Source of the DNA: Macrotis lagotis
Taxonomy: Eukaryota; Chordata; Mammalia; Peramelemorphia; Peramelidae
Reading direction: 5' to 3'
Length of the DNA stretch: 64,000 bases
Assembly: GCF_037893015.1 (NCBI RefSeq)
Contig: NC_133662.1
Location: 273,058,444 to 273,122,443, forward strand
A program made the position numbers and the translations under genes. Positions 20,502-61,363 of the stretch are shown here, piece by piece. The notes beneath the pieces are model-generated. The model ran no database searches and had not been told where the DNA came from. It was given only the letters and a program-made list of their open reading frames with translations. Every line of letters starts with the position of its first letter. The first letter of the stretch is position 1.

Positions 20502-20598
20502 ATGGCTGCGGCCCTGTGCCTGCTGCTGCTGCTGCTGCTGCGGGCCGGCCCCCTGCGCAGCACCGCCCGAGGCTGGAGGTCCTGGGACCATTGCACTG
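20502..20598 (+). CDS. TSPEAR: TSPEAR, first coding exon (signal peptide)
   Basis: This exon encodes 32 residues plus one base: M-A-A-A-L-C, seven leucines, then a short polar stretch ending G-W-R-S-W-D-H-C-T. The leucine core after a short start is a signal peptide. The tail corresponds to the human TSPEAR sequence G-W-E-P-C-T-D, where the protein continues into its laminin-G/thrombospondin-N-like domain. The exon ends at a consensus donor, G|GTAAGG, in phase 1, so the next exon must begin by completing a codon starting with G (Asp in human). The ATG is followed by G, giving a fair Kozak context. The frame is open upstream, so the start rests on the signal peptide. TSPEAR is a secreted EAR-repeat protein linked in humans to ectodermal dysplasia and deafness. 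Identification relies on this short match, the CpG island and the KRTAP genes downstream. Confidence 0.72.
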
Positions 20599-20900
20599 GT
20601 AAGGCTGGCCCCGGGCCGGGCGGGGGAGGGCAAACAATGCCACCCGGGGGGGGGAGGCCCCCGGGATCGGGCCAGTGCCCTCAGCCTACGCGGGTGGCAG
20701 TGCGGCAGGAGTAGAGCGGGGCTCCGGCCCCCCAGGACTCAGGTCTGGCTTCCTCTGCTGAGGCTTGGCGAGGAGCAGCCCGGTGCCCGGGGCTGCCACC
20801 TGCCCCGCCGCGCCTAGGCGGGGGAAGTGGGGCGCTCCCTGCGGCGGGGAGGGGGGGCAAGCGCCCCAGGTGGTCATTAGTGCCAGACGCCAGTGAAAGG

Positions 20901-21894
20901 CAGCATGTAATTGGGGAGGGGGGAGCTGGCTCTGCCTCTGCTCAGCGCTCCTTCCCCTCCCTCACCCCCCTCTCCGGCCAGCAGAGGGGAAAGGGAGTTG
21001 ACCCAAAGGCCCGAGGCCCGGCCTGCTGACCGGTGCTAAGAGGGTGGATTTCTCCCACCTGTGATTCCAGACCTGGAAAACTCCAAGCAGCCGGCCTGGC
21101 AAGGGGTGATGGCAAGAAATGAGTCCGGCACTGTGGGCAGCACCCGGGGGATTGGAATGGCATAAATACTCCCCTTGGATCTGGGGGAGGAGGCCAGCTC
21201 CTGGCCAGGTGGAAAGGATCAATCATTTCTATTAAGAGCCTGCATTTCTCTAAGACCCTGGAGGGGGTGGGGTACTTTGTAAAGAGGAAACACATACACG
21301 TGTGAGAATGCAAATGGCACCCTGGTTGGGCAGGGCTACCCCAAGTCTGGCTTGGAAGGACTGTCCTCCAGAGCTGATCAGTGGGTCATGGGGGTCTGCC
21401 ACTGGCCTTTTGGAGTCAGAAATCACATTTATCACAAGGTTTAGAGCTGAAGGGTGGCTTGGCAGCCAGAGCCCCAACTTCTCATTTTATGGGTGATGGC
21501 ACGGAAGTCAAGGGACTTGCCTAGATGGCCGAGGGAATGCCTCATCAGACTTGGACATGGGATTGGGTGAGCCCCTTGCTCACTGAGGGCAAGTTGGATA
21601 AAAGGGCACCCAGAAGCACCCTTCTACTCACCCACGGGAAGCTACGGGCTTCTTTTATGACCATTATTGTTAGGGTTACACGGCTTGATGTTCCATGTGT
21701 GTCCTGGGAAGCTCCTGGGCTTTCCCTGGTACTTGGTTCTTCCAGATAATCAGCTGCTTTGGGATAGAGATTCGTCTCTGTTCCTCCGCTTCATGGTCAG
21801 TCTTCCGGAATGCTGCATGGTCACTTCAGGGAGCATAGTTGTTTGGTTTTACACTGTGGTCCTTAGGTAAATGCTCCTCATTCTGCAGTACTTC
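20901..21894. other. Unassigned start of intron 1
   Basis: No exon or repeat is recognised. GC content falls steadily away from the CpG island. Confidence 0.35.
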
Positions 21895-23165
21895 CCACCC
21901 ATCTCAGGTTTCTCTGAAGCTGCCCCTTTGCCCCCTCTCCTTTGTCACCACAGCACTCCATTATATCCATATGCTCTAAGCTGTTCAGCCATTCCACAGC
22001 CGATGGACACTTGTGTTTTCCAGTTAGTTCGAGTTAGTTCTCCAGCACAACAGAAAGAGCTGCTGTCAGATGTATTTTTCCCTATCAGGTCCTTATTTCT
22101 TTGATCTCTTTGGGGTTTAGTTCTAATAGTGGTACTGCCAGATCATAAATTGTTATTCAACTATAACTTTCGAGAATTTATAGAAACTCCTTCCCAGGGG
22201 TGTTCCAGGGGTTAGGGATCAGGTTTCCCTGATCTGGAAAATCTGCTTAAATTTTTCTGACTCTCCCTTCACAGCAGAGAAGTCTGAGTTATTGTGGTAT
22301 TAAGAGATAAAAGACATTTATATCATGTATTTTATGCATTTCTGAATTTCTAAACTTTTTCTGTGTTGCCTGCTGGTCTTCCAAGGGTCCTCCATGGCTT
22401 CCACAAAACTGCCCCAAATTACCATTTAATTTCTCAGGCTGGTCTGCCATATATGGAAACCTTGATGGGGAAAGTTATCTTATGGAAGGGATAGTTTCAA
22501 GGTGCTTTCCAGAGTGACTGGATCATTTTGAAACTCCACAAGCAGTATACCTTTCCCCACCACTCCCTCTACCTTTTGACAAGTCAACTTCACTGATTTG
22601 ATGAGTGTGAGATGGCACCTCTGAACTTTTTAAATTTCCCTTTCTCAAATGAGTATTTTTTTTCACAGGATTACTGCTAGCTTGGGAAGCCTAGTGGCCC
22701 ATCATAGTGGCTCATAGAGTACCAGACCTGGAGTCAGGAAGACTAGAGTTCAAATATGACCTCAGACACTTACTGGCTGGGTGACCCTGGATGGGTCACT
22801 TAATCCTGTGTGCCTCCATTTCATTTATAAAATGAGCTGGAGCAAGAAATGGCAAACACTCCAGCATCTTTGCCAAGAAAACATCAAATAGACTGACTTA
22901 ACAACAAATGAACAGGTTGAATTCATTTCTCAGAAAACTATTCTTCATATCTTTGATCATCTATCAACTGGAAGATGGCTCTTATTGTTATAAATTTGAA
23001 TCAGTTCCTTATAAATCTTGGAAAAGAATCTTTTATCAGAGAAACTTGCTACAAATATTTTTCCAGCTTATTTGCTTCCATTTTAGCTGCATTGGTTTTC
23101 TTTTTTAAAAAACTTTCATTTTTTTGTATTTAAAATTGTCCGTTTTATGTGCTAATCTCATGAAT
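21895..23165 (-). repeat. L1 ORF2 fragment, split by a Mar1 SINE
   Basis: Antisense L1 landmarks are 'gttcagccattccacagccg', 'ctctttggggtttagttcta', 'gatgagtgtgagatggcacc', 'gaatcagttccttataaatc' and 'ttttatcagagaaacttgct'. Order and orientation are consistent with the ORF2 C-terminal half. A Mar1 copy at 22684-22908 interrupts it. Confidence 0.75.
22684..22908 (+). repeat. Mar1-type CORE-SINE nested in L1
   Basis: Landmarks are 'gagtaccagacctggagtca', 'gtgaccctggatgggtcact', 'ataaaatgagctggagcaag', 'ccagcatctttgccaagaaa' and an 'aacaacaaatgaac' tail. It is full length and younger than the L1 it splits. Confidence 0.8.
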
Positions 23166-23424
23166 GACTATTTTTAATTTTAAAGTACATACACGATGCC
23201 CTGTTCTGCATCCAGTCCAACTCATTCTGAAACAATACAAATTCTATTCCATCTCCTTTTTACTCCAACTCTATGATCATCTCTCCAATTTTTGGTCATT
23301 GCCTTTTTTCCTAGTCACAGATCTAAAAGGTCACTTCTTTCTTGCTCCTCTAACTTGTTCATGCTGGAGCCCCTTTCTGTCTAATTCATGTGCCCATTTA
23401 GAGTTTCTTTGGACTTGAAGGTGT
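23166..23424. other. Unassigned AT-rich DNA
   Basis: Probably more degraded LINE sequence, judging by its composition and position after the L1. No clear landmark supports it. Confidence 0.3.
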
Positions 23425-23610
23425 GAGTAGCTAGGTGCTGCTGTGGATGGAGCACAAGGTTAGCTGTATGATGTTGGGCAAGCCCCTTAACCTTTGTTTG
23501 CCCATTTCTTCTTCTTCTGAAAAGTGAGGTGAATAGCATCTGCCTCCCAGAGTGGTGGAGAGGTTCCATTAAGACCATATTTGTAAAGGGTTTTAGCATA
23601 GATTTAGGTG
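23425..23610 (+). repeat. MIR-class SINE
   Basis: A diverged tRNA-like head ('gtagctaggtgctgctgtgg') is followed by 'ttgggcaagccccttaacct', 'gtggagaggttccattaaga' and an end resembling 'taggtgct'. It is old and lacks target duplications. Confidence 0.6.
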
Positions 23611-24671
23611 CTCTTGAAATATCTTGATCCTTGCTGTTGTGTTGGTGGTTGTTGGGGCTCCTTGTTTCTGCCAGACTCTAGCAGCTTTTGTGGATTGCAG
23701 AATTTTTACCTGAGTAACTGCGATCTTTATAGTTGATCCTTTTCCCTTTTGGCTTCTGTGCAGGATATTTCCAGGATACGGGAACCTCCTTGTTTTATGG
23801 CAGGCTTGAAGCCAACACCCAGGGAATTACTGAGCAACATGTCTCCTGGGGCTTCGTTGACTAAGTAGTCTTCCACAATCGTAATATGTCCATGGGATAC
23901 GCCTCATCAGAGGAGAACTTGGAAACCTAGGCTTTGTTTTATTCTGGACATTTCTGGGGGAATGGATCTTGTATATCTGCCCTCTTCCCTCAATTATGTG
24001 GCTGGGAAGAGGTAGTCAGTTACATAAAATCATCAGTGAAAGCCTCCCTCTTCTCTTCCAACATTTTTATGGAGAAAATCCTAGATACATGTGTACATAG
24101 ATTTTTCTTAGGAAGATTTAGTAGAAAAATTTAAAAACCACGTTTGTGGGTTGATAGTTGCTGGTTTCCTGTCAGTTACATTTTATTGTAGTGAGAGATT
24201 TTTTTTGTTTGGTGTTTTCCCCTCATTGAGCTCTCTTGATCTGCCTCCAGCCTGGGATTCTTTGGCATGCACTTAGTCTGCACCAGCTGCTTTTCCTACC
24301 TCCAAATTCATCCTTTTCATTTGCTTTCTCTTCAAGTGCATGGCTCTTGACCTGTTAGACTTGAGGGGATCTTGGAAATGTGATGATCCCCTGTGGTCCA
24401 GGATGGATTGCTCCTCCAAATTGTAGCAGATCTGGACCTTTTTCTGTCTGCCTTGTGGGTCTGCTGCCCCTCTATTCTGGAAGAGGCCTGGGGAGGTTCC
24501 AGCTTGGCTGGGTCTCATGCCAAGTGGATTTCTCCCTCATTTTAGCATGCTTTGCTCTTTTGAAAGGTGATGCTACTTGTAATCTGCTTTCCTCTTTCAC
24601 AATATTTTGAAATGAGTTTATATCCTAAACCACTATTGGTTTTGGTTGCCAGATTTCTTCATTTCAGGGGT
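23611..24671. other. Unassigned intron DNA
   Basis: No gene or repeat is recognised up to the HAL1-like insertion. Confidence 0.35.
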
Positions 24672-24898
24672 TGACTGACTGAGTTCTTTTTTTTTTATAT
24701 TTGACTCTTTTTTATTTAATATTTCTTTATTCTCATTTTGTACAAATAACTTTTTTATACATTAATAAAATATTACTGTTTAAGAGTAAACAAAATACCC
24801 CTCCCCCCAAAATTATAGACTTGCTTGAGCAATAAAGTAAAGGGGAGAGAAAAAATTAAATTAAAATTAAAATAAAAAAATAATAGCAATAATTGTAG

Positions 24899-25080
24899 GT
24901 ATGGCCAGGTGGCGCAGTGGACAGAGCACCAGCCCTGGAGCCAGGAGCACCCAAGCCCATATCCGGCCCCATATACCCAACAGTCACCCAGCCGTGTGAC
25001 ATGCAAGCCACCCCAACCCCACTGCCTGGTAAAAACCAAAAAGAGAAAAAAAAAGACCTAAAATAAAATAAAATAAAATA
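24899..25080 (+). repeat. GC-rich SINE variant inside HAL1 3' region, unit 1
   Basis: The head 'ccaggtggcgcagtggacag' is followed by 'ccctggagccaggagcaccc' and 'cagccgtgtgacatgcaag', with an A-rich (AAAAT)n tail. It shares the odd 'gccaggagcacc' variant with unit 2. Confidence 0.75.
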
Positions 25081-25092
25081 GTGATAATAGTA

Positions 25093-25280
25093 GGGGTGGC
25101 TGGGTGGCAGACAGAGCACTGGCCCTTGAGCCAGGAGCACCCGGGTCCACATCTGGCCTCAGACACCCAATGATCACCCTGCTAGGCGGCCCCCCGGCAG
25201 GCCGCCCAGCCCCATTTGCCCTGCACCCCCTCCAAATAATAATAATAATAATAACAACAACAACAATAATAATAATAATA
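25093..25280 (+). repeat. GC-rich SINE variant inside HAL1 3' region, unit 2
   Basis: The head 'ggggtggctgggtggcagac' is followed by 'cttgagccaggagcacccgg' and 'ctggcctcagacacccaatg'. It ends in an (AAT)n/(AAC)n tail at 25215-25282. It is only ~13 bp from unit 1 and in the same orientation. Confidence 0.75.
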
Positions 25281-25480
25281 ATACTAAAATGTGCTTCAGT
25301 CTGTGTTCCAACACCACCAGCTCTGTCGCGGGTGGATCACCTTCTTTAGGATAAGTCCATCACAAAAGTTACTTCCATATTTTTCCACCGTTGCCATTGC
25401 TGATTGCAACTCCCTCCCTTCATACTTCTCCACTACCATGTACTCTATTTTCTCTCTCCTTTCACTCTGACTCTGCTGTA

Positions 25481-25632
25481 GGGTCGCTGAGTGGTGCAGC
25501 AGACAGATCCCTGGCCCTGGGGCCAAGAGGCCCCGGGCCCACATACCACCCTTAAGCCCAGCATCCACCTGGCCCTATGGTCCTGGACAGGCCATCCAAT
25601 CCCAGCCCCTTGCAAGAAGTAAAAAAAGAAAA
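25481..25632 (+). repeat. GC-rich SINE variant inside HAL1 3' region, unit 3
   Basis: The head 'gggtcgctgagtggtgcagc' is followed by 'ccctggccctggggccaaga' and 'ccagccccttgcaagaagta', with an A-rich tail. It has the same orientation as units 1 and 2 but is more diverged. Confidence 0.65.
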
Positions 25633-26214
25633 TGTGTTATATCTGACCACTCTCCCCCCACGGTCCATCCTTTCCTCCTTCATTCACATCTCTACCCCTT
25701 ACCCCTGCCCCCCCTTCTTACTCCAGATGTCTATACCCCATTGAGTATATATGCTGTTTCTTCTCCTAGCCACCTCTGATGAGAGCGAAGATTCCCTCAT
25801 TCCCCCTTGCCTTCCCCCCTTCCATGTCATTGCAATAGCTCATTGTAATAAAGAAAAATCTTATTATATGAAACATCTTGGCCTATTCCCCCTCTCCTTT
25901 TTCTTTCTCCCATTACATTTCCTTTTTTTTCTATTGACTCTATTTTTACACCATAGGTTATCTTCAAATTCAGCTTTCTCCTGTGCTTCATCTATAAAAT
26001 CTCCTTTTACCTGCTCTGTTAATTAACAAGGTTCATATGAGTATTATCAGTGTCATTTTTCTATGTGGGAATACATGCAGTTCATCATCATCAAGTCCCT
26101 CATATTTTCCCCTTCTCCTCCAATCTCTATGCTTCACCTGAGTCCTGTATTTGAAGATCAAACCTTCTGTTCAGCTCTGGCCATTCCAACAGGAACATTT
26201 GAAATTCCCCTGGT

Positions 26215-27216
26215 TCATTGAAAATCCATCTTTTTCCCCTGGAAGAGGACATTCAGCCTTGCTGGGTAGTTGATTCTCAGCTGCATTCTAAGCTCTTTTG
26301 CCTTCCGGTATATTATATTCCAAGCCCTATGAGCTTTTAATGTAGTAGCTGCTAAGTCCTGTGTGATCCTGACTGCAGCTCCGTGATATTTGAACTGTGT
26401 CCTTCTGGCTGCTTGTAATATTTTCTCTTTGACTTGGGAGTTCTGGAATTTGGCTATAATATTCCTGGGGGTTGGTTTTTTGGGATCTCTTTCTCTGGGG
26501 GATCGGTGGATTCTCTCCATTTCTATTTTGCCCTCTGCTTCTAGGATATCAGGGCAATTTTCCTGTAGTAATTCTTTGAAAATGATGTCAAGGCTTTTTC
26601 CTGATCATGACTTTCAGGTATTCCAATAATTTTTAAATTATCTTTCCTAAATCTGTTTTCCATATCAGTTGTTTTTTCAATGAGATGTTTCACATTTTCT
26701 TCTAATTTTTCATTCTTTTGGTTTTGAAGTATTGAGTCCTGATTTCTTGTAAACTCAGCAATCTCCATGCGTTCTATTCTTTGTCTGAAGTATTTCTTTT
26801 CCTCAGAGAGCTTTCTTATCTCTTTTTCTATCTGGCCAATTCTGCTTTTTAAAGCATCCTTCTCCTCAATAACTTTTTGAACTGTTTTATCCATTTGACC
26901 TAAGCTGGTTTTTAGCATGCTATTTTCTTCAGCATTTTTTTTTTTGGATTTCCTTGACTAAGCTGTTGACTTCATTTTCATGTTTTTCCTGCATCTCTCT
27001 CATTTCTTTTCCCAGTTTTTCTTCTAACTCCCTCAGTTGATTTTCAAAGTCTTTTTTGAACTCTGTCATAGCCTGAGCCCAATTTCTGTTTTTCTTGGAG
27101 TCTTTAGATTCAGGAGCTTGTGCTTCCTTATCTTCAGACTGAGTATTTTGATCTTTCTTAGGCTCATATGCAAAATATTTCTCAATGGTATTCCTCTTTT
27201 TTCTCTGCTTGCTCAT
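26215..27216 (-). pseudogene. L1-type ORF1 protein gene of the HAL1-like element, frame-broken
   Basis: Three successive minus-strand frames (27216-26929, 26918-26541, 26520-26215) together follow the L1 ORF1p order. First comes a charged N-terminus (MSKQRKKRNTIEKYF..) leading into a heptad-rich coiled coil rich in E, K and L. Next is an RRM-like block with 'NLKIIGIPES'. Last is the C-terminal domain with 'PRNIIAKFQNSQVKEKILQ' and 'AARRTQ', then 'LKAHRAWNIIY'. ORF1p is an RNA-binding chaperone that trimerises through the coiled coil. There are two breaks between frames. The first coincides with a long A-run on the coding strand near 26935-26944, a common slippage site; the second lies near 26530. 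Confidence 0.85.
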
Positions 27217-27989
27217 TTTCCCAGTCTAAGCCTGTTTTGGGGGCACTTCCTGAGCTTTTGGGACACTCCCACAAGGATCTCAGTGTGTAAGGCTCTGTCC
27301 TCCCTCCTGGTCTGTGAATGACCATAAGCGACCCCTTCTGCCACAGGGCTGAGATGGGGGGTCCCTGCTGTTCTATGGGGGGGCCCAGACTGCAAGCAGG
27401 ATCTGACTGTGGTCAGAACCCCAGCTTTCTGTTCTAGGGGCAGAGGACTGAGCTCTGAAATCTCTCTTCACTTCCCTCCCTAGGTTCAATGGGCTCATGC
27501 CCTGGGGGCTCTTGCTTACCGGCTCCACCTACTTCTGTTTCCTGAATCTGGGCTGCCTTGGCCAAGCTGCTCTGCTCACTGCTCACTGTGTGCCCTGAGG
27601 GCTGGGCTTCACATTCTCACTCTGGCAGAGGTTCCCCGCTGTTCTCCCAAGTTGTGCCCAGTGCTCCCCAGGGCGCAGCTCAAGAAACTCCCCCTGCTGC
27701 TGTGAGCCTTGGCTCCCAGAGCCCTGGGGCTGCCTCTGGGAGGTTGAAGTTCTTTCGCTTTGTCAGGCCACCCCTCTGGTGGCCGCCCTTCCAACCCTGG
27801 GGAGCAGAGCCTTTCTGCTCTTTTCCAGGTTACCTTGAGTAGGAGAACTACCTCATTGGGTCCCTCTGTGAGTTCTGTCTCTCGAAAATTTAGAGTCCTT
27901 AGTTTTTAAGTTTTATGAGAGAGCACCTAAGACACGATCAGTTCTTGTCACCATCTTGGCTCCATCCCCTCTGACTGACTGAGTTCTTT

Positions 27990-28735
27990 CTTGGACTCCT
28001 AGCTTCCCCATTATAGACCTGGATTTACATGGACTAACCATCTTTTAGAACGAGTGATGGTAAGGGGCAGGAACTTTCCATTTAGTCATTTTTCATAGTT
28101 AACTTGCTTGAAAAGGGGATCTTGGGACTTTTGTAATTTTATACAGAACCCTCTCATTCTTTTAATTGATCTTTGTTTTAGCTAGTCTATGGTTTGCATA
28201 TAACTAATTCTCAGAAATAACTCCTTCACTGGTAACCAGTTGTTTCCTGTCATAATAGTTTGTGTGTGTGTGTGTGTGTGTTGCTGCTTGTCATTCTAAG
28301 TTTCAAGTGTCTTCTTCAAGAAAGTCTTCATGACAGATGGACTTTGAAGCTCCTGCATAGATTGTGAGCCTTTAATTTCTATCATTTCTTATTATCAAAC
28401 CATATCTTTTTAGCATTTGAGTGACTCCTTTTTAGTATCCTTTCCACAGTGATGTTACTTATTATCAAGGGATATGCTGTCTTAGGTCCAGATTTTTGTC
28501 AAGATTTTCATAGATTTTCTCTACTCTGATTCTTTGCCAGAGAGTGGCACAGAAACTGCAATGATTTTTTGTGGGGGATTTGTTTATTATGTTCATCAAG
28601 CCACACACAATGAGGTCAGATGATCAAGGCTCCCATGAACTTACTTCTTGGTAAGTTTTTTTGGGGGGTGATGAAGGGTGTCTGTTCTTCCAAGGAGAAT
28701 CTGGACACCATTTTCCTTCTGCTGAGCTGTGATTT
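27990..28735. other. Unassigned intron DNA with a (TG)n run
   Basis: The pre-insertion sequence continues after the HAL1 target duplication. A (GT)n microsatellite spans about 28259-28281. Nothing else is recognised. Confidence 0.35.
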
Positions 28736-28876
28736 TTTTTGCAAGGCATTGGGGTTAAGTGGCTTGCCCAAAGGCCACACAGCTAGGTAATTATTATGTG
28801 TCTGATGCTGGATTTGAACTCAGGTCCTCCTGAGTCCAGGGTCAGTGCTCTGTCTACTGCGCCACCTAGCCACCCC
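28736..28876 (-). repeat. Marsupial tRNA-derived SINE with perfect target duplication
   Basis: A reversed full copy runs from its T-rich/'tttgcaaggc' end to 'ccacctagccacccc'. A perfect 13-bp duplication, tgagctgtgattt, lies at 28723-28735 and 28877-28889. Confidence 0.9.
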
Positions 28877-28889
28877 TGAGCTGTGATTT

Positions 28890-29269
28890 GTGATATCGTG
28901 TAGCTCCATTTAAACCACAATCTTAATGTGGTTTAGATTTTTTCAGTAGTATTCCAACTCAATGGTGAGTGGACAAAAATCTCATGTGTAGAGAGGCCCC
29001 AGTGGTTGGTATTCTCAGGATGTACGAGTTCCTTCTATTCAGATGTTGCAACAGAGAGTCAAAAAAGTGGGGAGGTCGGGGATCATGATGACTGACAAAA
29101 AGAAAGAAGTCAGAGTTGCTCAGTTCTTGACTTTTTCTCTTTTCTCTGCCAAGGACAAATACCCTTTGCACTGAAAAAGACTGAGCAATGGAAAGATAAG
29201 TAACAATATAGAAAGAAAGCCCCTCATTGCCATTGATGGATTCAGGTTTCCTTCTCAGATAAACTGCAT
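28890..29269. other. Unassigned intron DNA
   Basis: A long minus-strand open frame crosses this stretch but has no recognisable domain and no signal of being a gene. Confidence 0.35.
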
Positions 29270-29720
29270 CCTGGGGCACTGGAACACAGTAACAACAACA
29301 ATTGGTGCATGTGATTGGTGAGTCACTCAAGGTCACCAATATTTCAAAGACCATGGAGAATAGGAGAGGGGCCTCAAGACTAGAAGAGAGTAAAAAGGAA
29401 GAGTATTGGATCTGAAACCTACAGACCAATGAACCTGACTTCAATTTCTAGAAACTTCTAGAGTGAATCATTAAAGAGCTGGTTAGTGAACATCAGTAAA
29501 AGGGAGCAGTGATTGCCTAAAGTCAGTAGAGCAAACCCCCAGAATGTCCCAGGGAGCAAATGAAGACTTTTTTGTGGGGGAAAAAACCTTTCTTGGCCAT
29601 AGAGCTGTACAAAAGTCTCAGGGAGTGGTAGATTCTTCCTAGATATCTTCAAGCTCTTGTCAAGTACGTGAGTGAGGACTGCTTTCAAGTATGGCTTGGA
29701 TCAAACGGCCACTGGGGTCT
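29270..29720 (+). repeat. CR1/L3-like LINE remnant
   Basis: Sense landmarks of an old CR1-class reverse transcriptase are visible. 'acagaccaatgaacctgact' is followed by 'ttcaatttctagaaacttct' (the ..YRPVSLTSI.. region), then 'gaacatcagtaaaagggagc' and 'agtgattgcctaaagtcagt'. The tail-like 'gtagattcttcctagatatc' and 'ttcaagctcttgtcaagta' follow after an internal loss. It is heavily decayed. Confidence 0.5.
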
Positions 29721-30079
29721 TTTCAAATCATGTGAATCTGCGAATTGTGTGATTCTTGGCATCCTCTGGCCCCTTTTCTGCTACATAAGCATAGCCACAG
29801 TGGAAGCCAAAGGGAACGTGAAAGATCAGCACAATTTTGTATTTTCCATTATTTTAGCAGCGGGTGTGAGGAAAGATTTCATTGCCTTGTAACCAACCTC
29901 CTGGTGATAAGACTAAGTTAGTTAGACTGGCACCGGGACAGCTGATGCTATCTGTTCCTGAAGTCTTTCTAACATGGTTCTCTGCTGACCTAGCCGAGAA
30001 GATTAAGGATTTTTGTGGAGTACAAATACCTAATTGAAGAAAGAGATTAAACACTTGTCTTAATTAAAAAAAATGTTCA

Positions 30080-31341: not shown

Positions 31342-31548
31342 GTTGGTTGTTGTTGTCGTCTTTCACTTGTAGCCAACTCTTCATGACTCCATGCTTGGAA
31401 TGATTTGCCATTTCCTTCTCAATTCATTTTGCAGATGAGGAAACTGAGGCAAACAGGGTAAAGTGATTTGCCCAATGCCACAATTAGTGAGTGTCTGAGG
31501 TCAATAAATCTTCCTGTTCCAAACTTATTGCCCTGTCCACTATACCAC
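31342..31548 (-). repeat. Mar1-type CORE-SINE, reversed
   Basis: The reversed tail 'ttgttgttgtcgtctttcac' is followed by 'ttgccatttccttctcaatt', 'gcagatgaggaaactgaggc' and 'ccctgtccactataccac'. Confidence 0.75.
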
Positions 31549-31659
31549 GCCTAACCACTTGCTAAGCCTGTGCTAAGGGGGCACAAAAAGACAGTTCTTA
31601 TCTGCAGGAGTCTAAAGGGAAGACAACAAGCCAAGGGCTAGTTATAAATTAGCTGCTGA

Positions 31660-44931: not shown

Positions 44932-44933
<2 letters not shown>

Positions 44934-48830: not shown

Positions 48831-48846
48831 TGGCAGCTCACATCAA

Positions 48847-49692: not shown

Positions 49693-49743
49693 CTCATTTA
49701 AGGAGTGGCACTGCCATACCCAACACCTTATTATCTTGTGCCA

Positions 49744-52224: not shown

Positions 52225-52945
52225 GCAAATCCTTTTAAATTCATTTTATAGTATTTTCCCAACTACTTGTCAAGACTTTTTAGCATTCAATTTTACAATA
52301 TTTTGAGTTTCAAAATTTTCTCCTCTTTCCCTCTCCTCTTCCTAAAATGGTAGGCAATTTGATATAGGTTATATTTGTTCAGTTATGTAAAACATATATC
52401 CGTATTACTCACATTTGTGAAAGAAAAAACAGATCAAAAGGAAAAAAAGGAAAAAAATAAAGTGAAAAAAGTATTCAATTTGCATTCAGAGTTCATCAGT
52501 TCTTTATCTGGATATGGATAGCATTTTTCATGACGAGTCCTTTGCACTTGTCTCAGATTATTGTGTTGCTGAGAAGAGCTGAGTCTTTCATTAGGTGATT
52601 ATCACACAATGTGGTGATCATCACACTATAGATAAGTTCTCCTGGTTCTGTTTATTTCATTTTGCATCAGTTCATTTCCAGTGTTTTGAAAAATCCAGCT
52701 TTTTCTAAAATTTGCCTGCTCATCATTTTTATTGCAGGATAGGATTCCATTACATACATCACAGCTTGTGCAACTACTCCCCAATAGATTGGCATCCCCT
52801 CAATTTTCAATATTTTGCCACCATGATGCTACTATAAATATTGCATATATGGATCCTTTCCCTTTTTTTTGGATCTCTTTGGGATACAGAACTAGTGATA
52901 TTGTTGGATCAAAGGGTACACATAGTTCAATTGCTCTTTGCATAT
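52225..52945 (-). repeat. L1 ORF2/3'UTR fragment
   Basis: Antisense landmarks are 'gagtttcaaaattttctcct', 'ttctcctggttctgtttatt', 'gctactataaatattgcata' and 'ttggatcaaagggtacacat'. It is the same region and orientation as 10795-11585. Confidence 0.78.
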
Positions 52946-53035
52946 AAAACATATATCTCATAGCAGAACTGGAGTTTGAACCCAGGTCTTCTGAGATCTA
53001 GTCTTTCCATTAAATGGTTCTGTTTCCATCAAGAC

Positions 53036-53290
53036 ATTGGTTGGTTCTTGTCCTTCATTATTGAAGAAGACTAAAGTGACATCACAAGTTACTTTGTGTC
53101 TAACTGTGGCTGCTCAGACCAATATGAGCTCAGAATATTCTACCACAATAGAGTAGTACAAATCCTTGAACGCCTGGGGTGGGTTCTCTAAAACATGCAT
53201 TCCACATTTCCTTTGAGTTGCTTCCATTCTGCCTTGCTCATAGAGCACAGCCCCTTCTTTGTTGAGGGCATGCCATTCTCTCTAAGAACT
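53036..53290 (-). repeat. 3' end of the 31660-type LINE, second copy
   Basis: Aligns with 31665-31900: 'ggttggttcttgtccttcat', 'accaatatgagctcagaata' and 'agagcacagccccttctttg' match in order. It corresponds to the C-terminal coding end and 3' tail of that LINE. Confidence 0.7.
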
Positions 53291-53640
53291 AAGGTTTGGG
53301 AAGTGGGTTGTTGGGAAGAAAAGAGCAAAATCTATTTATGGTCTGAATCAAAAATCTGGTTTATGTGATGGAAGACATGGAAGGTACAAAATTGGCTTGA
53401 AACCGTGAAAAGTTTGCAATCAGATGATCAGAAAAATTCTCATGAGAAAACATTGTCAAGAAAACACTACCACAAAGTTTTGGAAGGAGAACTGGAAAAA
53501 ATGAAAATGGCCAGAAGATGGCTAAAGGAATTTTATGGAGCTTTTCTCCATACACAGCTCCTTCCTGTCCAACTGGAAATCTACTCTGATCCTGAAAGTC
53601 CTGCCGGACCCTGGGGAGGTGTGTGATCAGTACTGTTGTC
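53291..53640. other. Unassigned
   Basis: An AT-rich gap between the LINE tail and the duplicated KRTAP10 unit. Nothing is recognised. Confidence 0.3.
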
Positions 53641-53774
53641 TTCGTTGTAGCCTCATAGACCCACCTCACCCCCCAGGCTACCTCCAGTGGGACTTCTGCT
53701 TCCCCTCCCCTTGGTGGGCCCAGAATAATACAAAAAAAGGGCAAGGGAGAAACCAGCAAGGAGAGCTGATGCAG

Positions 53775-53780
53775 TTTATT
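53775..53780 (-). terminator. Poly(A) signal AATAAA of KRTAP10-like B
   Basis: Minus-strand CTGGCAATAAACTG, 302 bp past the stop codon. Conserved with 43840-43845. Confidence 0.8.
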
Positions 53781-54081
53781 GCCAGGTGGGTCCCTGCATG
53801 GGGTTATCCCTGCACACTTTGATCCTAGAGAGAGCCTGAGATCTGGCAGCAGTGCCAGGAGGGTACAGGCCGAGCTGGGAGCAGGAGCTATGGCTGGGGT
53901 CAGCCATGGTTTGGAGTAGCTTTATCAGTGACTTCATCTGCACTTGGGGTGGGTGGGGAGGTCAGTTGGTGGACTGAATGTTTGTGGCCTTGTTGGCCTG
54001 TTGTTCAGGCTGATGTTTGTGGATGGACCCAGGAGACCAAGGGTAGGTTGGTAAGGTTTGAGAGGAGCATTTGGCTTGTGT

Positions 54082-54879
54082 TCAGCAGCAAGACTTCTGA
54101 CCACAGGAGGTAGTGCAGCAGGCGGGTTTGCAGCAGACGGGCCGGCAGAGGAGGGACACGCTGGAGGTGGGGCGGCAGCAGGTGGAGGCCGGGCAGCAGG
54201 ACGGGGTGCAGCAGCAAGAGGAGGAGGACGTGGTGGTGCAGCAAGAGGGCTTACAGGAAAGGGGCACACAGCAGGGGGGTGGACCACACACGGGCCGGCA
54301 GAGGAGGGTGATGCAGGAGGCCGGACGGCAGCAGCTGGGCTGGCAGCAGCTGGAGGCTGGACAACAGGCTGTGGTCACACAGCAGCTGGGCTTGCAGCAC
54401 ACGGGCAGGGCCAGGCAGCAGCTGGGCTGGCAGCAGAGTGGGGCACAGCAGCAGGACTGCACCACACAGGGAGAGGCAGCACAGTTAGGGGCTTGGCAGC
54501 AGGACTGCTGGCAGCTGGAAGACCCGCAGCCAGAGGACTGGCAGCAAGACTGCTGGCAGCAGGCTGGGGAGCAGGAGGCGGTGCAGGTGGCCTGGCAGGA
54601 GACGGGTACACAGGTTGGCTGACAGGAGGCAGGCAGGCAGCAGACTGGGCGACACACAAGTGTCAGGCAGGAAGCTGGTGGGCAACAGGGGGTTGGGCAG
54701 CAGGAGGGTTCGCCGCAGCCGGGTTCACAGCAGCTCTCTGGGCAGTCATCCAGCTGCCAGGACGAGCCCATGCAGGAACTGGGCAAGCAGACATTGCTGC
54801 TACAGCTCACGTCACTGGAGCAGACCGAGGTGGCTGAGGCTGTGGGCACGCAGGGCCTGGAAAAGCAGGTGTCTGCCAT
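54082..54879 (-). CDS. KRTAP10-like: Keratin-associated protein, KRTAP10-like (copy B)
   Basis: An intronless 265-residue high-sulfur hair protein with about 73 cysteines (28%). The N-terminus [10 protein letters not shown], then S-V-C-S-S-D-V-S-C and [13 protein letters not shown], matches human KRTAP10 proteins (..[13 protein letters not shown]) even more closely than copy A does. The repeat body of xPxCC units follows, including [20 protein letters not shown] around residue 110, a ~20-residue block missing from copy A. The tail is [20 protein letters not shown]. The start at 54879 is chosen by paralogue alignment and because the frame's more distal ATG at 55041 lies upstream of the TATA box (54954-54959). 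The product is expected in the differentiating hair shaft, bound to keratin filaments by disulfide bonds. Confidence 0.94.
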
Positions 54880-54953
54880 GGTGGGAGCAGCTGTGTGTGG
54901 GTATGAGGGAAGGTGTGGGGCTGGGTGTGAAGGTGACACAACCTGGTGGGTTC

Positions 54954-54959
54954 TTATAT
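54954..54959 (-). promoter_or_regulatory. TATA box of KRTAP10-like B
   Basis: Minus-strand GATATAAGAACC, 75 bp before the ATG, giving a predicted leader of about 50 nt. It lies at the equivalent position to that of copy A once the latter's microsatellite is discounted. Confidence 0.75.
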
Positions 54960-55270
54960 CCCTCTGATCAGGAGGATGTGCCAAGGGGAGCCCGAGGCTT
55001 CTTCCTTGTTGTGCAGGGCTGCTTCCCTCAGAGCTCATCATTTGGTGATGTTGTCATTTTCCAGGAGATGGTCAATGACCATAAACATCTCTATCAGTGT
55101 AAGTATAAGTGTGACTTTGCTTATATGTGTGTTTATGTGTGTGTGCACACTTGTATGGGCAGGCTAGTGGTTTGAAATGTTGATATCCTAACTTGGGTTC
55201 TACTAGGTCTCTGAAGTCAAAGTAGATGCTGAAAGTCAGTGAGTGGCTCTGACTGCCTTGAAGGGTAGGC

Positions 55271-56000
55271 CAGCCATGGTCCTGCATTCAGGTGCTGTGA
55301 CTTCTGTTTTCTTTGGTTCTTTGTTGTAGAGTCTAGGACTTGAAGTTTCATTATTTTGCCTTATTTGGCCTGGCTTAGGCCATGGCCTTAAGTAGGAGGG
55401 CAGATGATAGGGTAGAAACTGGATTTACCAAAGAGGGAGATCAAGACCTTTAATGATGATGCTTCTCTTGACATGTAATACGGACATTTTGACCCCACTC
55501 TCTTAGGGCTGGGCCTACTCTAGCTCCTCCTCAGAGTTCATAGGATTTCTCTTTCCTCTGCCATTTGCTGTGTTCCCTTATTTTTATGGGCCCAGTAACT
55601 AGTACCTCTACCTCAGCTCCATTAATTACTTAATGTTAATTGGCTTTTGAAAAAATATTTACTTTAAAGTTATGGCACGAAGAAGCATGAGGACACCCTC
55701 CCCCAACACTTCCAGGGCAAAATTCCCTCCTATACCGAAGTTGGCTTCACCAAAATCCCATCTATAGGAAGCAATAGTGCAGGATGGATTTTCCCACTTT
55801 GCTGGGATCCCAAGCCTGATACTTGTGATAATGGATACTGGGCTGACCAACTCCAAAGCCATCCTGGATTCCAATTTGTAGATGACCATAATTTATATTT
55901 TGACTTAGTTTGAGACTCTGCTCCCTACTGTTAGCAAAGAAAAATAAAGCATCTGGAGTCTGAGGAGGCCCCGTTCCTCGGGGGTTATACTGTCTTGGAG
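55271..56000. other. Unassigned intergenic DNA
   Basis: No gene or repeat is recognised. Confidence 0.35.
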
Positions 56001-56158
56001 TTGTTGTTGATGTTGCTTGTCCTTCATTATTATTGAAGAGAACCCTGAATCAGGGATATGATGCCATGACATGCATGTGACTTGAATTTGTGCAAAGTCA
56101 CTGGTTTTACTCTCTTCCAGGGCCATCCGGGTCCAGTGGCCAGATGTGGATGGGGACT
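56001..56158 (-). repeat. Composite SINE, 3' part, reversed
   Basis: The tail 'cttgtccttcattattattg' comes first, then 'aagtcactggttttactctc' and 'ccgggtccagtggccagatg'. It is the 3' half of the family at 8838-9150. Confidence 0.6.
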
Positions 56159-57569
56159 ACTAGCGTCTAGGAGTAGAAGCAGAGACGTCCCGTAACCCTT
56201 TAGAGTTTGATTCTCTTGTCAAATGCTTTTATATCCTCAAAGCTTCTCTAAACATGAGGAAGCAAAAAATTATAAAAAGGGAACAGAGAAAAATTGATCG
56301 ATATCGAATGACATTTTGGAATGTCTCCTAAACTGATCCAAGAGCCTTTCCTACTCTACTCAGTTACAGGATGGTCACTCAGGTTCTAGTCTCTCCCAGA
56401 GATGGCCACAGTTCTCCTGGAAGCAGGTCTCCAGACTCCTTCATGTGGAAGGACTTTTTTGGGAATTGGATTTTTTTGGGAAGAGGGCAGAAAACAAGTT
56501 ATTTGGGGCTTAGGATGTCAATTGACAAGCAGTTTGAAATGTCAGATTTAAAAGTGATGAAGTAGGACTAATGATGAAAGGAGACATTGGGATTAGATTT
56601 ATGAGGGGAGATTATAGGATTAGATTTATGGCCATCATGGAGATGATGGCCAAGTCCATGAGAACTGGTGGCTACTATTAGAGAGAACAGAGAGAGAATG
56701 GTTGAAGAGGTTGAACTGAGCTTTGGAATCACTGATGGTCCTATAGGAGCATGATAAGTCAACAGAGGAGTAAGAGTTTCACAAAAACCTAGAAAGGAGA
56801 AAGTGTTCAGGAGGAAAGACTAGTCAAAAGTCTCCAATGCACTGGAGAAGGAAGAACAATGAGGACGTATGATCTGAGTGGTTGGAGGGGGGGTAGTCTT
56901 ACTTCCATGATATTGGAGCTTGAACATAGGGGTTAAGAAATGAGGGAAAAAATACAAATTGGCCAGGAAGACAATCAACTTTCTCTCAGAGTCTGACTAT
57001 TACTGAGAGGAGAAGAAGACCGAGGATGATGTGAGGGGACAATAAAGCTGGGGGAAGCTTTGAACTAGCAGGAAGAAGGAAAAGACTGAGACCTGATTGT
57101 GGAGGTGATGTGTTCCAGGAGACAGGAGGTGATGGGATCCAAGCAGCATGAAATGGGGCTGCTCCATCCATGTCCAGATTCCATGAGCAGAGAGGTTTTG
57201 GAAGCAAAGAGATTGGAGAAGAGGGGCCTCAAAGCTAATGGTCTCATGTCCTCAGCATTTTATTGAGAGAAAGTCCTCATTTGAAAGGAGTGATGGAGGA
57301 GTTGGAGAAAGTTTGAGGAAAAAGGAAATGCCCAGGTTTGGGGTGGTTGGGCAGGAAAAAGGCTTCCCATACTTGATCTCTTTGGTTTGGATTGCATAGA
57401 GGTTGGAGAATCAGAATGGGATGGGATGAAAGACAATGGAGTTGCATCTCCTCTCATTGTTTCTAGTAGGAACCAACAGGTAGACTAGAACAAAATCACG
57501 TGCGAATTATGGCTCCAGGCCTTGATGAGGGACAGGAGGAAACCTTTACAGTTTTACTGTTCTCTTTTA
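56159..57569. other. Unassigned, purine-rich
   Basis: From about 56560 to 57350 the + strand is strongly purine-rich (many 'gaggagaagaag'-like phrases), reminiscent of old interspersed repeats, but I cannot name one. No coding evidence. Confidence 0.35.
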
Positions 57570-57870
57570 TTCCCATATCTGGAAACCCAGCCAGATGCTT
57601 TCTGTATCCCTACCACCTGATGATCCATCCCTCACTTCCAGGCCTTTGTACCAGCAGTCTTCCTGACTGGGATGCCCTCCCTCCTTCCACTGTATAAGGT
57701 CTCTTTTCTCCTCGTCTCATCTTTTGCAGGAAACCTTTTCTGATCCTCCACTTGCTAGTTCTTTCACTCCAAGTGAATAAGAGTAATACATGTTTTTATT
57801 CTTGTTATACCTAAACTATGTATTTGTATTTATGTCCTTCTTGACACCCCATTAGAATGAGTGGCTAAAG
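57570..57870 (+). repeat. L2 LINE 3' region
   Basis: 'ggcctttgtaccagcagtct', 'tgactgggatgccctccc', 'aggaaaccttttctgatcct' and 'ccccattagaatgagtgg' are the L2 3' region in order. Confidence 0.75.
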
Positions 57871-58392
57871 TGACAGGCACAGTGTTAAGCACCGAGCATC
57901 CAAGAAAAAGGCAAGCTGGCCAGGAGCTCCCCTTCTAGTGGGTGAAGCAGCTGTCAGGAAGCAAGAAAGGTCCCAAGGGCCCCAGGGGCAGCAGCAAAGC
58001 TGTTGCCCTATTGATGTTAAACAATTTCATACCAGCTCTGGTGACAGGGACTTTCCTTTCAGGGTCCCCGGGCTGCATGTGCCCAGGGCCTTCTTATAGG
58101 AGGCTGCTCTTGGGCCTGGGGACCTGGACTGTTTCCACCAGGCTTGGAGGAGAGACAGTGGTCAAGGTCATGCTGCTGATCTGCTCTGCCTCTCCTCTAG
58201 CTGCCTTGCTGTTCAGTTCTCACATGAACTGGGAGGGCTGAGCTAGAAGAAGGCCTGGTGTTCGGGGGGCTGCTTTCACTCCTGGGCACTTGCTCCTCAT
58301 GAGTAAAGTTGGGGTTTTGGTTTTTTAATTCTTTGTCTTTATGTGTCTTGTGCCTGGCCTTTGAATTCTTGGCAAAAGGGTTGTTTTAAAAA
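57871..58392. other. Unassigned
   Basis: A MIR/L2-like phrase at 57880-57960 ('cagtgttaagcaccgagcat') is followed by unrecognised DNA. Confidence 0.35.
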
Positions 58393-58531
58393 GTTTTTTG
58401 CAAGGCAATGGGGTTAAGTGGCTTGCCCAAGGCCACACAGCTAGGTAATTAAGTGTCTGAGGTCGGATTTGAACTCAGGTCCTCCTGACTCCAGGGCCGG
58501 GGCTCTATCCACTGAGCCACCTAGCTGCCCC
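58393..58531 (-). repeat. Marsupial tRNA-derived SINE
   Basis: A reversed copy from 'ttttttgcaaggcaatgggg' to 'cacctagctgcccc'. The target duplication is unclear. Confidence 0.85.
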
Positions 58532-59048
58532 AGTAAAAGGTTTTTTGATGGAATGTGTGTCTGGAACATTTAAAGGAAATATTTTTTTCCTCAGGGAATT
58601 CCCCCTCCTATTAATGACATCAAAGTTACAACCAAAGAGAGACCAGAAACCACCTAATTGTGCAAACTCAGGTCAGGATCTCTAGGTCACTCTTGACTGT
58701 TGAGAAGCGGTTTGGGGTTTGCTATCCCTGGAATGGGATTAGGAAAACTCTTCCAGTCTTGTGATTGGCTTGGCCATTCCCCCTTTGTAATGGATTCCCT
58801 AAGGGCTCCCCTGCACATCCTGCGAAGACCAACACCCTATATTCCTCACACTCATCCATCCCTTTCTATTCCTATAGCCACTGGCCAATCCCAACCCTCA
58901 AGGATGCTGGGGGAAAATGTAGTCAGCTAAAGATTCAGGGTTGGGGTGAACATGAAAGAATTCATTTAAAAGACTGACTTTGATCCAGAAGAAATTTTGG
59001 GGACCAAAAGGTCTATTGAAGTATTGTTGTGGTTAGTATAAGCTAAGG

Positions 59049-59105
<57 letters not shown>

Positions 59106-59639
59106 AAGGCAGTTGAAAGGAGATCAGCAGCAGCAGCTGTATGGACAGCAGCATCGGCAGCAATATAAGCAGCCATGAGGAAATGAACAATGAGGTATAC
59201 AATCATGAGAGGTTACCTGGGAAATCACACTCAAGAGTGGGCTAGCTTCACCAGAAGACAAGCAACTCAGCTGAGTAGAGGGTGAACATTTAAGGGAAAC
59301 AGATATGGGGGGGTTAATTCAGAGAGCAGAGAAATGGTAATATGTTGAGGGATACTGGCTCAAAGACTCAATCCCAGGGCAGAAATCCATTGTTTTGTTG
59401 ATAGGGACTTGTCCTTGCCAGGGAGCAGGGTAAAATACTTTATTAAAAGTTCATTGAACTCATCTCAATAACTTGAACAATGGGATGGTTTTAGGGACAC
59501 ATATTGCATCTACAGTGTTAAATATAGTGGTCAGTGCAGAGGAAATAAATTAATTATAAAACATTTTTTCTCTTCAATTTTTCCACTACTTCATTATCAC
59601 CTCACACTTGGTTAGAAGTAATAGTTACCCCTCATCTCT
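58532..59639. other. Unassigned intergenic DNA around the (GA)n run
   Basis: Apart from the microsatellite, nothing is recognised. Confidence 0.35.
59051..59103 (+). repeat. (GA)n microsatellite
   Basis: About 26 uninterrupted GA units preceded by a short G-run. Confidence 0.95.
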
Positions 59640-60000
59640 CCCCACTCCGAGCCACCTACCTCTCACCAGGCAGTGTGGTTTTCCTTTAGTACAAGTCTGA
59701 GTCTCTCCCTTATTCAATACATTTTAATGGTTACCTCTTTCCTTCCAGGTCAGACAGAAATCCCTGTTGGGCACTGAAAGTTCTTTCAATGGGGTCCCTT
59801 CCTGTCTTCCCATCACACATAAGTACTAATTAGCACACTCTGCTATCTAGCTCCTCTGGAAGGCTTTTGTTTCCTGGAATATAGCTCTTCATTTTTTTTG
59901 TCTCTCATCTGCCTGGGTTCCTTCAAGACAGCTTGAGTCCCACCCTCTGAAGGCAACCTTTCCTGTTTCCCTCTGCTGCTAGCACTCCATGAAAATGTCT
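59640..60000 (+). repeat. L2 LINE remnant
   Basis: 'ttggttacctctttccttcc'-like text at 59725, 'cctggaatatagctcttcat' and 'ggttccttcaagacagcttg' followed by 'ggcaacctttcctgtttccc' are L2 3'-region phrases. Confidence 0.6.
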
Positions 60001-60740
60001 TTAGCTCAGCCCTCAATGGAAGTTTATTGACTGCTTCACTATGCCTCCTTTCTCCCAACCTTGGACCCTGTCTCTCAGTGCTGAAGAAGAAAATACATCC
60101 TATAGACATCTGATTTCCATCTCATTGTTATCCAGATAAATAGCCCCATTGTGGACCAAAAAGATCTTACCAAAATGTAAAGGCCCTAGATTCTTTCCCA
60201 AGCATACCCACCTAAAGACCCCATGAGAATGTAAATTTATAGGTCAGCTTTTACCCAACCCTCCCCGCACCATCACTTTGCCATAAAAACTGGGAACTGA
60301 GATGTAGGTTGGAATTACCTCAATGCCTTTCCCAAAACTTTGCCTAAGACTAAGCAAAATACCTGTTTTTTTTTCTTAAAAGACCTGACATTCCCTCCTA
60401 GTTTTTCTAGATTTCCTTAAGAAATCTAGCCCTCACTACTTGGTTCATTAACTTCTTTCCTTGATTCTTTTAGTAGTCATGGTAGGAAGTGATAAACTTT
60501 GTCCCTATGCCTCTAGTCAAGACTTGTTATGTGGAATTCATTCCTGACTTTCCAAAGAATCCAGCCTTTCCTGAGTCTACACCCCTTCTAAGACTCCTCA
60601 TCACATTTCAACACCAGCAGATTGAGATTGTCCACCCAAATAGGAGTGGCATGGAGTTGGCATAGGTTCCTTTTGGAGGTACAAGTCTTTGGACCTCATG
60701 GAAGTGAAAGAAAAGTATGAGAACTGCATGTATATGTGGC
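60001..60740. other. Unassigned flank of KRTAP12-like B
   Basis: No gene or repeat is recognised. Confidence 0.35.
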
Positions 60741-60752
60741 AGGTCACATTAA

Positions 60753-60758
60753 TTTATT
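60753..60758 (-). terminator. Poly(A) signal AATAAA of KRTAP12-like B
   Basis: Minus-strand CCAATAAATTAATG, 240 bp past the stop. Context is shared with copy A. Confidence 0.8.
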
Positions 60759-60997
60759 GGCCAAGGCATACTCCAGTAGCAAATGTGCAATGAGATAAAC
60801 CCTCTTTGCTCCCTGGGTTTCAGGGAAGGGGTGGGGGAAATGGAAGCTCTTGTGGACTGGATCACCAGCCCTGCTTTGTGTGGTTACGTACAATGTTCCG
60901 GAGAGATCAGTAGACTTGTGGCTGCAAGGACCCGAATCCGAGTCTCCAGTCTCATCCCATCTGAACTCTGAGTGAATACCTTGGAAGACTCTCCTGT

Positions 60998-61363
60998 TCA
61001 GCAACAGGAACAGGGGGGACAGGGAGTTCTGCAGATGGCTGGATAGGAACCTGGCTTGCAGCATGAGACTTGGCAGGGCACACACAGAGAGGGTTTGCAG
61101 CAGATGGACACACTGCAGGATGATGAGCAGGGGTTGGACACACAGCAGGCAGATGACCAGGGGTTGAACATACAGCAGGAAGGGCTGCAGGGGCCAGCCT
61201 GGCAGCAGGTGGATAGGCAGGGCCCACCTCCACAGCAAGAGTGATGAGACACTATGGCCACAGAGGTCGGGTGGCAGCAAGGACAGACACAGTGGAGAGG
61301 GTTGCAGCAGATGGGCACAGAACAGTTGGGCTGGCAGCCACTGGAACAGGTGGTGAGGCACAT
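60998..61363 (-). CDS. KRTAP12-like: Keratin-associated protein, KRTAP12-like (copy B)
   Basis: An intronless 121-residue protein with about 33 cysteines (27%). The start M-C-L-T-T-C-S-S-G-C-Q-P-N-C is close to human KRTAP12 (M-C-H-T-S-C-S-S-G-C-Q-P-A-C). The blocks CCQAGPCSPSCC, CCVSNPCSSSC and LCVPCQVSCCKPGSY match copy A in order. It is 29 residues shorter, mainly through losses around the middle repeats and the C-VTLLCRP region, which is replaced by a histidine-containing stretch (H-P-T-S-V-A-I-V-S-H-H). The frame is open and cysteine density is kept, so it may still encode a hair protein. However, the TATA element seen in copy A is altered here, so expression may be weak. Flanks on both sides are paralogous to copy A. 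Confidence 0.85.
   Translation of the reverse strand: MCLTTCSSGCQPNCSVPICCNPLHCVCPCCHPTSVAIVSHHSCCGGGPCLSTCCQAGPCSPSCCMFNPWSSACCVSNPCSSSCSVSICCKPSLCVPCQVSCCKPGSYPAICRTPCPPCSCC

Follow-up and report, generated by a model that had tools for sequence, protein, structure and literature searches.

The window (the whole stretch of 64,000 nucleotides that was analysed) almost certainly holds the probable promoter and exon 1 of TSPEAR, a gene of hair and teeth, and then the first 43 kb of that gene's intron 1, which is 170 kb long. In this intron at least 27 single-exon loci make up KRTAP cluster 3. Each of them runs antisense to TSPEAR, the array probably grew by copying a two-gene unit, and the nesting is probably older than the split between marsupials and placentals. 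The features of the window are as follows.

19501..21200, no strand assigned: CpG-rich stretch around TSPEAR exon 1, probable TSPEAR promoter
20502..20598, + strand: coding part of TSPEAR exon 1, signal peptide; phase-1 donor GTAAGG at 20599; joins exon 2 in frame
20599..64000, + strand: first 43.4 kb of TSPEAR intron 1 (170,281 bp); next exon at C5:273249323
44108..44845, − strand: KRTAP10-like gene 1, 245 aa; TATAAGAG 136 bp upstream, AATAAA downstream
49148..49600, − strand: KRTAP12-like gene 2, 150 aa; TATAAAAG 92 bp upstream, AATAAA downstream
54082..54879, − strand: KRTAP10-like gene 3, 265 aa; TATAAGAA 79 bp upstream, AATAAA downstream
60998..61363, − strand: KRTAP12-like gene 4, 121 aa, open; TAAAAG-type TATA box only; below the Pfam cut-off

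The sequence from 20502 to 20598 is MAAALCLLLLLLLRAGPLRSTARGWRSWDHCT followed by G, and then the donor GTAAGG. It is the sole + strand place in the window where an ATG and a hydrophobic core precede a strict phase-1 GGTRAG donor; one place on the minus strand satisfies the same pattern, without a CT ending, and a looser GGTRRG donor adds two + strand places (34079 and 37151), neither of which is TSPEAR-like. In 150 block-wise dinucleotide shuffles of the window, read on both strands, signal-like exons appeared at 0.51 per shuffle (at least one in 59 of the 150), and none of them ended in CT or W[DE]xCT, the latter pattern having been picked after the match was known. The signal peptide was detected by a hydropathy threshold only. 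When the window alone was searched by tblastn with human TSPEAR, exon 1 was matched at a non-significant E of 4.7, one other match lay on the minus strand (E 1.2), and exon 2 was not found inside the window; exon 1 is also missing from the E 1e-3 match list of the wider search of the downstream genome. Since the match within the window is not significant, the identity of exon 1 is settled only by the exon 2 found downstream. The start context is weak, with C at −3, and an in-frame ATG lies upstream at 20190. The surrounding CpG-rich stretch is the only one with GC of at least 0.6 and CpG observed/expected of at least 0.4 (500-bp windows, over the window and the 264 kb examined); the latter ratio reaches 0.52 here against a median of 0.11 in the window, and by its composition the stretch is probably the TSPEAR promoter.

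TSPEAR exons 2 to 12 lie on the + strand of the same chromosome, at C5:273249323-273280589. The first-pass annotation had proposed a TSPEAR-like signal exon with a clean donor at 20598 and had called for a phase-1 exon 2 on the + strand with an LRPL-like start. Both proposals hold, because exon 2 begins at C5:273249323 (window-equivalent 190880) behind the acceptor ctacag, followed by ATCTGCGTCCC, and the junction made in silico is in phase 1, with G and AT forming Asp, and reads WDHCT-D-LRPLDIL. The border between exons 1 and 2 in human TSPEAR presumably has the matching form CT-D-LRPL. Ten more exons follow up to the stop codon, and the 12-exon model encodes 677 aa with no internal stop, although the open frame is partly a matter of construction, as splice sites were chosen to keep the frame and the match to the human protein. 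The model is identical to human TSPEAR at 494 of 668 aligned residues, and the human query agrees with five published residues, namely G17, S223, G475 and E596 (PMC9222913) and S325 (PMC10290489). Intron 10 requires a GC donor. Five EPTP (EAR-repeat) matches over the Pfam cut-off are found on C5, all within these exons, and the other 22 of the 27 listed matches are on other contigs. The model thus combines a signal peptide, a TSP-type laminin G region, known through alignment only, and EAR (EPTP) repeats. Exons of UBE2G2, which we take to be the upstream neighbour of TSPEAR in humans too, lie upstream of exon 1 on the + strand; no credible match to UBE2G2 or SUMO3 is present within the window.

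The four minus-strand KRTAP genes that had been placed more than 20 kb into the intron are indeed there, with 23.5 kb between the donor and the nearest of them. The probable starts of genes 1 and 3 are internal to their longest open reading frames (at 44845 instead of 44962 in gene 1, and at 54879 instead of 55041 in gene 3), and they are preferred because each has ACCATGG and lies 136 or 79 bp, respectively, below a TATA box. Starts in the longest frames running through a CT repeat, or in those ahead of genes 1 and 3, were discarded. AATAAA occurs 239-301 bp past the stop codon in all four genes. When the longest frames were scanned, Pfam Keratin_B2_2 exceeded its cut-off in three of the four, gene 4 scoring 14.6 bits against a cut-off of 27. 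Genes 1 and 3 are single-exon genes over this cut-off that carry SVCSSD..PESCCEP at the N terminus and GQKS[SC]C at the C terminus, which we take to be the signatures of human KRTAP10. Genes 2 and 4, also of a single exon and located in the KRTAP10 cluster, begin with what is presumably the KRTAP12 signature, MC.TSCSSGCQP; this provisional name can be given more securely to gene 2 than to gene 4. Composition agrees with both assignments, with Cys at 26.9 and 27.4% and Ser at 19.2 and 17.7% in genes 1 and 3 (KRTAP10 averages of 25.92 and 18.86%), and Cys at 22.7 and 27.3% and Ser at 18.7 and 17.4% in genes 2 and 4 (KRTAP12 averages of 22.54 and 17.94%; PMC4180150 Table 3). The dN/dS ratio is 0.23 for gene 3 against gene 1 and 0.41 for gene 4 against gene 2.

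These four are the first of at least 27 KRTAP10/12-like loci between TSPEAR exons 1 and 2, found with the four proteins as queries (E 1e-3) over a fetched 264 kb. KRTAP10 and KRTAP12, the members of cluster 3, thus sit between exons of TSPEAR, and all 27 loci are on the minus strand with none on the plus strand, antisense to TSPEAR. At the same threshold neither the 60 kb before exon 1 nor the 33 kb after exon 2 yielded such a locus. There are 14 KRTAP10 and 13 KRTAP12 loci, broken ones included; long open frames remain in 21 of the 27, and 20 of these 21 have a TATAA box within 160 bp, the other having TAAAAG only. The two types alternate, like neighbours numbering 2 of 26 against 12.5 expected (as few in 12 of 1,000,000 permutations). 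A run of 5,000 N directly after the window could conceal genes or mark a misjoin. Other Keratin_B2_2 matches are found elsewhere in the genome, on C2 and C3.

A 7.95-kb unit of KRTAP12 and KRTAP10 occurs three times in tandem, the last copy being incomplete, with a self-alignment of 13.6 kb (91%) at an offset of 7,951 bp and another of 5.6 kb (87%) at 15,877 bp. Among the 45 listed of 113, no other long self-alignment (up to 3.9 kb) contains both gene types. The three copies show that the array grew by duplication of a two-gene unit. Distances among KRTAP10 copies follow those among the next KRTAP12 copies (Mantel r 0.84; 10 of 5000 permutations; 10 pairs) more closely than those among the previous ones (r 0.42; 203 of 5000), the broken KRTAP12 loci 17, 23 and 24 and their pairs having been excluded beforehand and the broken loci 14, 18 and 19 kept. 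In the clear unit copies KRTAP12 comes before KRTAP10, yet it is the previous KRTAP12 that correlates more weakly, so the borders of the unit vary along the array. The two end copies of KRTAP10, 1 and 27, are each other's nearest relatives, and the interior copies are mostly more alike. Growth may have proceeded by unequal crossing-over of one such unit, from which all copies would have inherited a single orientation; gene conversion or crossing-over might homogenise the interior while the ends diverge. An alternating unit offers a way for two hair-protein subfamilies to expand in step. Host gene structure, nesting, the strand of each copy, the alternation and the three-copy unit can all be read directly from the assembled sequence.

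The human KRTAP cluster on 21q22.3 was reportedly placed inside TSPEAR/C21orf29 by Shibuya et al. in 2004. In human cluster 3, KRTAP10 and KRTAP12 lie within TSPEAR introns as they do here; however, the human genes are presumably grouped in blocks with both orientations, whereas all 27 loci found here are in intron 1, antisense and alternating between the two types. The human nesting is cited in PMC8657448, and subfamilies 10 and 12 make up cluster 3 in placentals and marsupials according to PMC2528016. Published counts, with disrupted genes in brackets, are 5(1) KRTAP12 genes in humans (PMC2528016 Table 1), 13(0) KRTAP10 and 6(2) KRTAP12 in opossum (PMC2528016), and 5(3) and 7(0) in wallaby (PMC4180150), against the 14 and 13 loci here, broken included. 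The earliest appearance of KRTAP12 is reported in therians (PMC4180150). The earlier suggestion that the nesting is common to humans is supported by the shared location and the cited human nesting; because humans share it, the arrangement dates to before the split of marsupials and placentals, if the genome is a marsupial's. No description of TSPEAR nesting, strand or alternation of marsupial KRTAP10/12 was found in the literature searched, which mostly excluded subscription journals, and the uniform antisense orientation and the alternation are possibly new. Automatic annotations of marsupial genomes may already show the nesting.

Mouse Tspear is active in hair follicles (PMC5065119). Each KRTAP gene would be driven in hair cells by its own TATA promoter, while TSPEAR pre-mRNA would traverse the array in antisense, and sequence complementary to KRTAP mRNAs would leave the TSPEAR transcript with the spliced-out intron 1. 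A long follicle-active host gene crossed by a row of oppositely facing hair genes offers a clean setting in which to test head-on transcription.

Transcription through the array would be avoided if the first exon of TSPEAR lay instead between the array and exon 2, the exon at 20502 then belonging to another gene. This is very improbable, although a non-coding or other-form first exon would evade the donor scan. The fetched stretch contains 328 phase-1 GGTRRG donors before exon 2. Seven of these come with an ATG and a hydrophobic core, and one of the seven is UBE2G2 coding sequence; among the remaining six, only that at 20598 has a WxxCT end and lies in the sole CpG-rich stretch, and just one other (window-equivalent 81370) lies between the first gene of the array and exon 2. 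Gly17 of human TSPEAR is, we presume, near the end of the signal peptide. PMC9222913 assigns a change of this residue to human exon 1, in keeping with a first exon that ends after codon 27. Entry of the KRTAP array into TSPEAR separately in marsupials and placentals is scarcely credible: KRTAP genes sometimes reach new sites, as in a new dog cluster on chromosome 31 with one KRTAP10 and two KRTAP12 (PMC2528016), but the same two subfamilies occupy the same host gene, and a double insertion of one pair is improbable.

The orientation itself might be kept by selection, if promoters and AATAAA signals of sense copies shortened TSPEAR transcripts within the intron so that only antisense copies survived. 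The antisense strand of every locus and the AATAAA past the stop codon of each KRTAP gene in the window accord with this, but tandem duplication alone gives one orientation, and the human genes presumably face both ways within TSPEAR, so that we hold such selection to be unlikely. A broader reading, only slightly less doubtful, makes the intron a tandem machine of KRTAP12 and KRTAP10, in which duplication and conversion keep the register of at least 27 alternating antisense loci and orientation is held because sense copies would truncate TSPEAR; were it true, hair cells would transcribe TSPEAR in coupling or competition with an entire array of hair-shaft genes. The preferred reading remains an ancient nested cluster, probably enlarged by unit duplication.

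As for the rest of the window, a tRNA scan found none. The label 'marsupial' for this genome comes from a SINE that is presumably marsupial-specific; two stretches of it have 7 and 5 matches with at most 3 mismatches, none being expected in shuffles. Of 32 open reading frames of 100 aa or more, the four KRTAP genes and ten others were scanned with Pfam; among these ten, one has L1 ORF1 domains over the cut-off, one a reverse-transcriptase match below it, two weak chance-like matches and six none. The L1 piece matches the solved L1 ORF1p.

The first coding exon of TSPEAR, placed by the first-pass annotation at 20502-20598 (+), is strongly supported by its predicted in-frame junction to a TSPEAR exon 2 downstream on the same strand. 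It codes for MAAALCLLLLLLLRAGPLRSTARGWRSWDHCT and one extra base, followed by GTAAGG. Exon 2 begins at the acceptor ctacag followed by ATCTGCGTCCC (C5:273249323, on the contig that carries the window), and therefore the final G of exon 1 together with AT gives Asp at the junction; the predicted phase-1 LRPL junction was found exactly, on the plus strand. The human protein starts MSALLSLCFVL...GWEPCT-DLRPLDIL. The human sequence used for comparison agrees with five published residues (G17, S223, G475 and E596, PMC9222913; S325, PMC10290489). Within the window alone, its match to exon 1 spans from Met to the donor at a non-significant E of 4.7, and exon 1 is absent among its matches at E 1e-3 in 264 kb (the window and 200 kb of neighbouring C5 DNA). 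Signal-like exons with a phase-1 donor occurred 0.51 times per shuffled window, and none ending in CT was found in the 150 shuffles. Exon 1 is surrounded by a CpG-rich stretch (19501-21200); no other stretch of the window or of the 264 kb reaches both GC of at least 0.6 and CpG o/e of at least 0.4.

The window occupies C5:273058444-273122443 of a 3.66-Gb genome. Of the 27 Pfam EPTP matches listed for this genome, five are on C5, all on the plus strand at 273255313-273276970, and the remaining 22 are on contigs C1, C3, C4 and C9. In the window and 200 kb of adjoining DNA, 11 more plus-strand exons match human TSPEAR at E 1e-3 or better. Splice sites were chosen by eye in the exon flanks, guided by frame and human alignment, and thus the open frame of the resulting model (12 exons totalling 2034 bases that encode 677 residues and a terminal stop, without internal stops) is partly by construction. 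The model is identical to the human protein at 494 of 668 aligned residues. Its donors are GT in 10 of 11 cases, the other being the in-frame GC (gcaggt) of intron 10 (C5:273275045), a GC-AG intron. Intron 1 measures 170,281 bp in a gene of about 201.6 kb. Exons of UBE2G2, the neighbour of TSPEAR in human as well, lie upstream on the plus strand (C5:273021353-273024777).

Four minus-strand KRTAP10/KRTAP12 genes had been claimed more than 20 kb into this intron, and open, cysteine-rich genes indeed lie there between exons 1 and 2:

44108-44845, minus strand, gene 1, KRTAP10-like
49148-49600, minus strand, gene 2, KRTAP12-like
54082-54879, minus strand, gene 3, KRTAP10-like
60998-61363, minus strand, gene 4, KRTAP12-like

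All are single-exon genes with 22.7-27.4% Cys and an AATAAA 239-301 bp downstream. Genes 1-3 have a TATAA box 79-136 bp above the ATG and exceed the cut-off for Pfam Keratin_B2_2; gene 4 scores below it, with TAAAAG as its sole TATA-type box. The four genes were named by human signatures and location, besides Cys and Ser contents, which are near the KRTAP10 and KRTAP12 averages in Table 3 of PMC4180150 except for Cys in gene 4 (27.3 vs 22.5%). The dN/dS values of the KRTAP10-like pair (0.23, 240 codons) and the KRTAP12-like pair (0.41, 121 codons) suggest constraint, with the caveat that gene conversion may distort them. Gene 4 is open, but its degenerate TATA box and low Pfam score indicate that it may be in decay.

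When the four proteins were used as queries at E 1e-3 in the 264 kb, 27 KRTAP loci were found, every one on the minus strand between TSPEAR exons 1 and 2; the 60 kb before exon 1 and the 33 kb past exon 2 contained none. Match length and sequence assign 14 of them to the KRTAP10-like type and 13 to the KRTAP12-like type. Long open frames (thresholds of 240 and 120 aa, respectively) are retained in 12 and nine of these, including KRTAP10 loci 10 (shifted C-terminus) and 16 (early end), and the other six of the 27 are broken or partial. Exactly 5,000 N directly follow the window within the array (C5:273122444-273127443, or 64001-69000 in window numbering), and thus 27 is a lower bound.

This nest is a known kind of arrangement, since the location of human cluster-3 KRTAPs within TSPEAR introns is cited in PMC8657448 and named among the references of PMC2528016, and cluster 3 (subfamilies 10 and 12) is reported in placental and marsupial genomes (PMC2528016). 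Opossum has 13(0) KRTAP10 and 6(2) KRTAP12 genes (PMC2528016) and wallaby 5(3) and 7(0) (PMC2528016; PMC4180150), with disrupted genes in brackets. KRTAP12 reportedly first appears in therians (PMC4180150), and chicken reportedly has the genes flanking KRTAP clusters without KRTAP-like genes (PMC2528016). No description of an alternating, all-antisense KRTAP10/12 array was found in the literature searched.

The two types alternate along the array, with like neighbours in 2 of 26 cases; two or fewer occurred in 12 of 1,000,000 permutations (mean 12.5). One two-gene unit is clear:

92967-114301 (C5, window numbering), KRTAP12+KRTAP10 unit of 7.95 kb in three tandem copies, the third partial, 87-91% identity in self-alignments

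The self-alignments concerned are 13.6 kb (91%, offset 7,951 bp) and 5.6 kb (87%, offset 15,877 bp), and the comparison gave no inverted match of 1.2 kb or longer. Among the matches listed (45 of 113), further long self-alignments reach at most 3.9 kb and none of them contains both gene types; for the older copies, a two-gene unit is therefore inferred from gene order. Distances among KRTAP10 loci correlate with those among the next KRTAP12 loci (r 0.84, 10/5000 permutations, 10 pairs) and more weakly with those among the previous ones (r 0.42, 203/5000, 10 pairs). The KRTAP10 end copies, 1 and 27, are closest to one another, and most interior copies resemble each other more; window copies 3 (KRTAP10), 2 and 4 (KRTAP12) are likewise divergent. 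Such relatedness is as expected if exchange were commonest within the array.

The most likely route of expansion is unequal crossing-over of this two-gene unit; it would account for the alternation and the uniform orientation alike. Each KRTAP would have its own independent TATA promoter, and TSPEAR transcription would start at the CpG-rich promoter and run across the array in antisense. In mouse, the hair matrix, hair shaft and root sheaths all express Tspear, and both Notch1 expression and the diameter of the hair bulb decrease when it is knocked down (PMC5065119). Because of this expression in hair tissues, the host and its nested KRTAPs are probably active in one organ.

The TSPEAR intron also holds ordinary retroelement remains:

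26215-26520, minus strand, L1 ORF1 fragment
32053-32361, minus strand, reverse-transcriptase fragment

Two stretches taken as marsupial SINE sequence gave seven and five matches with at most three mismatches (0 expected), which is compatible with the marsupial genome proposed in the first-pass annotation. Between KRTAP genes 1 and 2 lies an 18S rRNA pseudogene (45959-47300, minus strand; Rfam RF01960, 215 bits), interrupted by an element with an AAAT tail; CTCATAG occurs at both junctions and resembles a target-site duplication.
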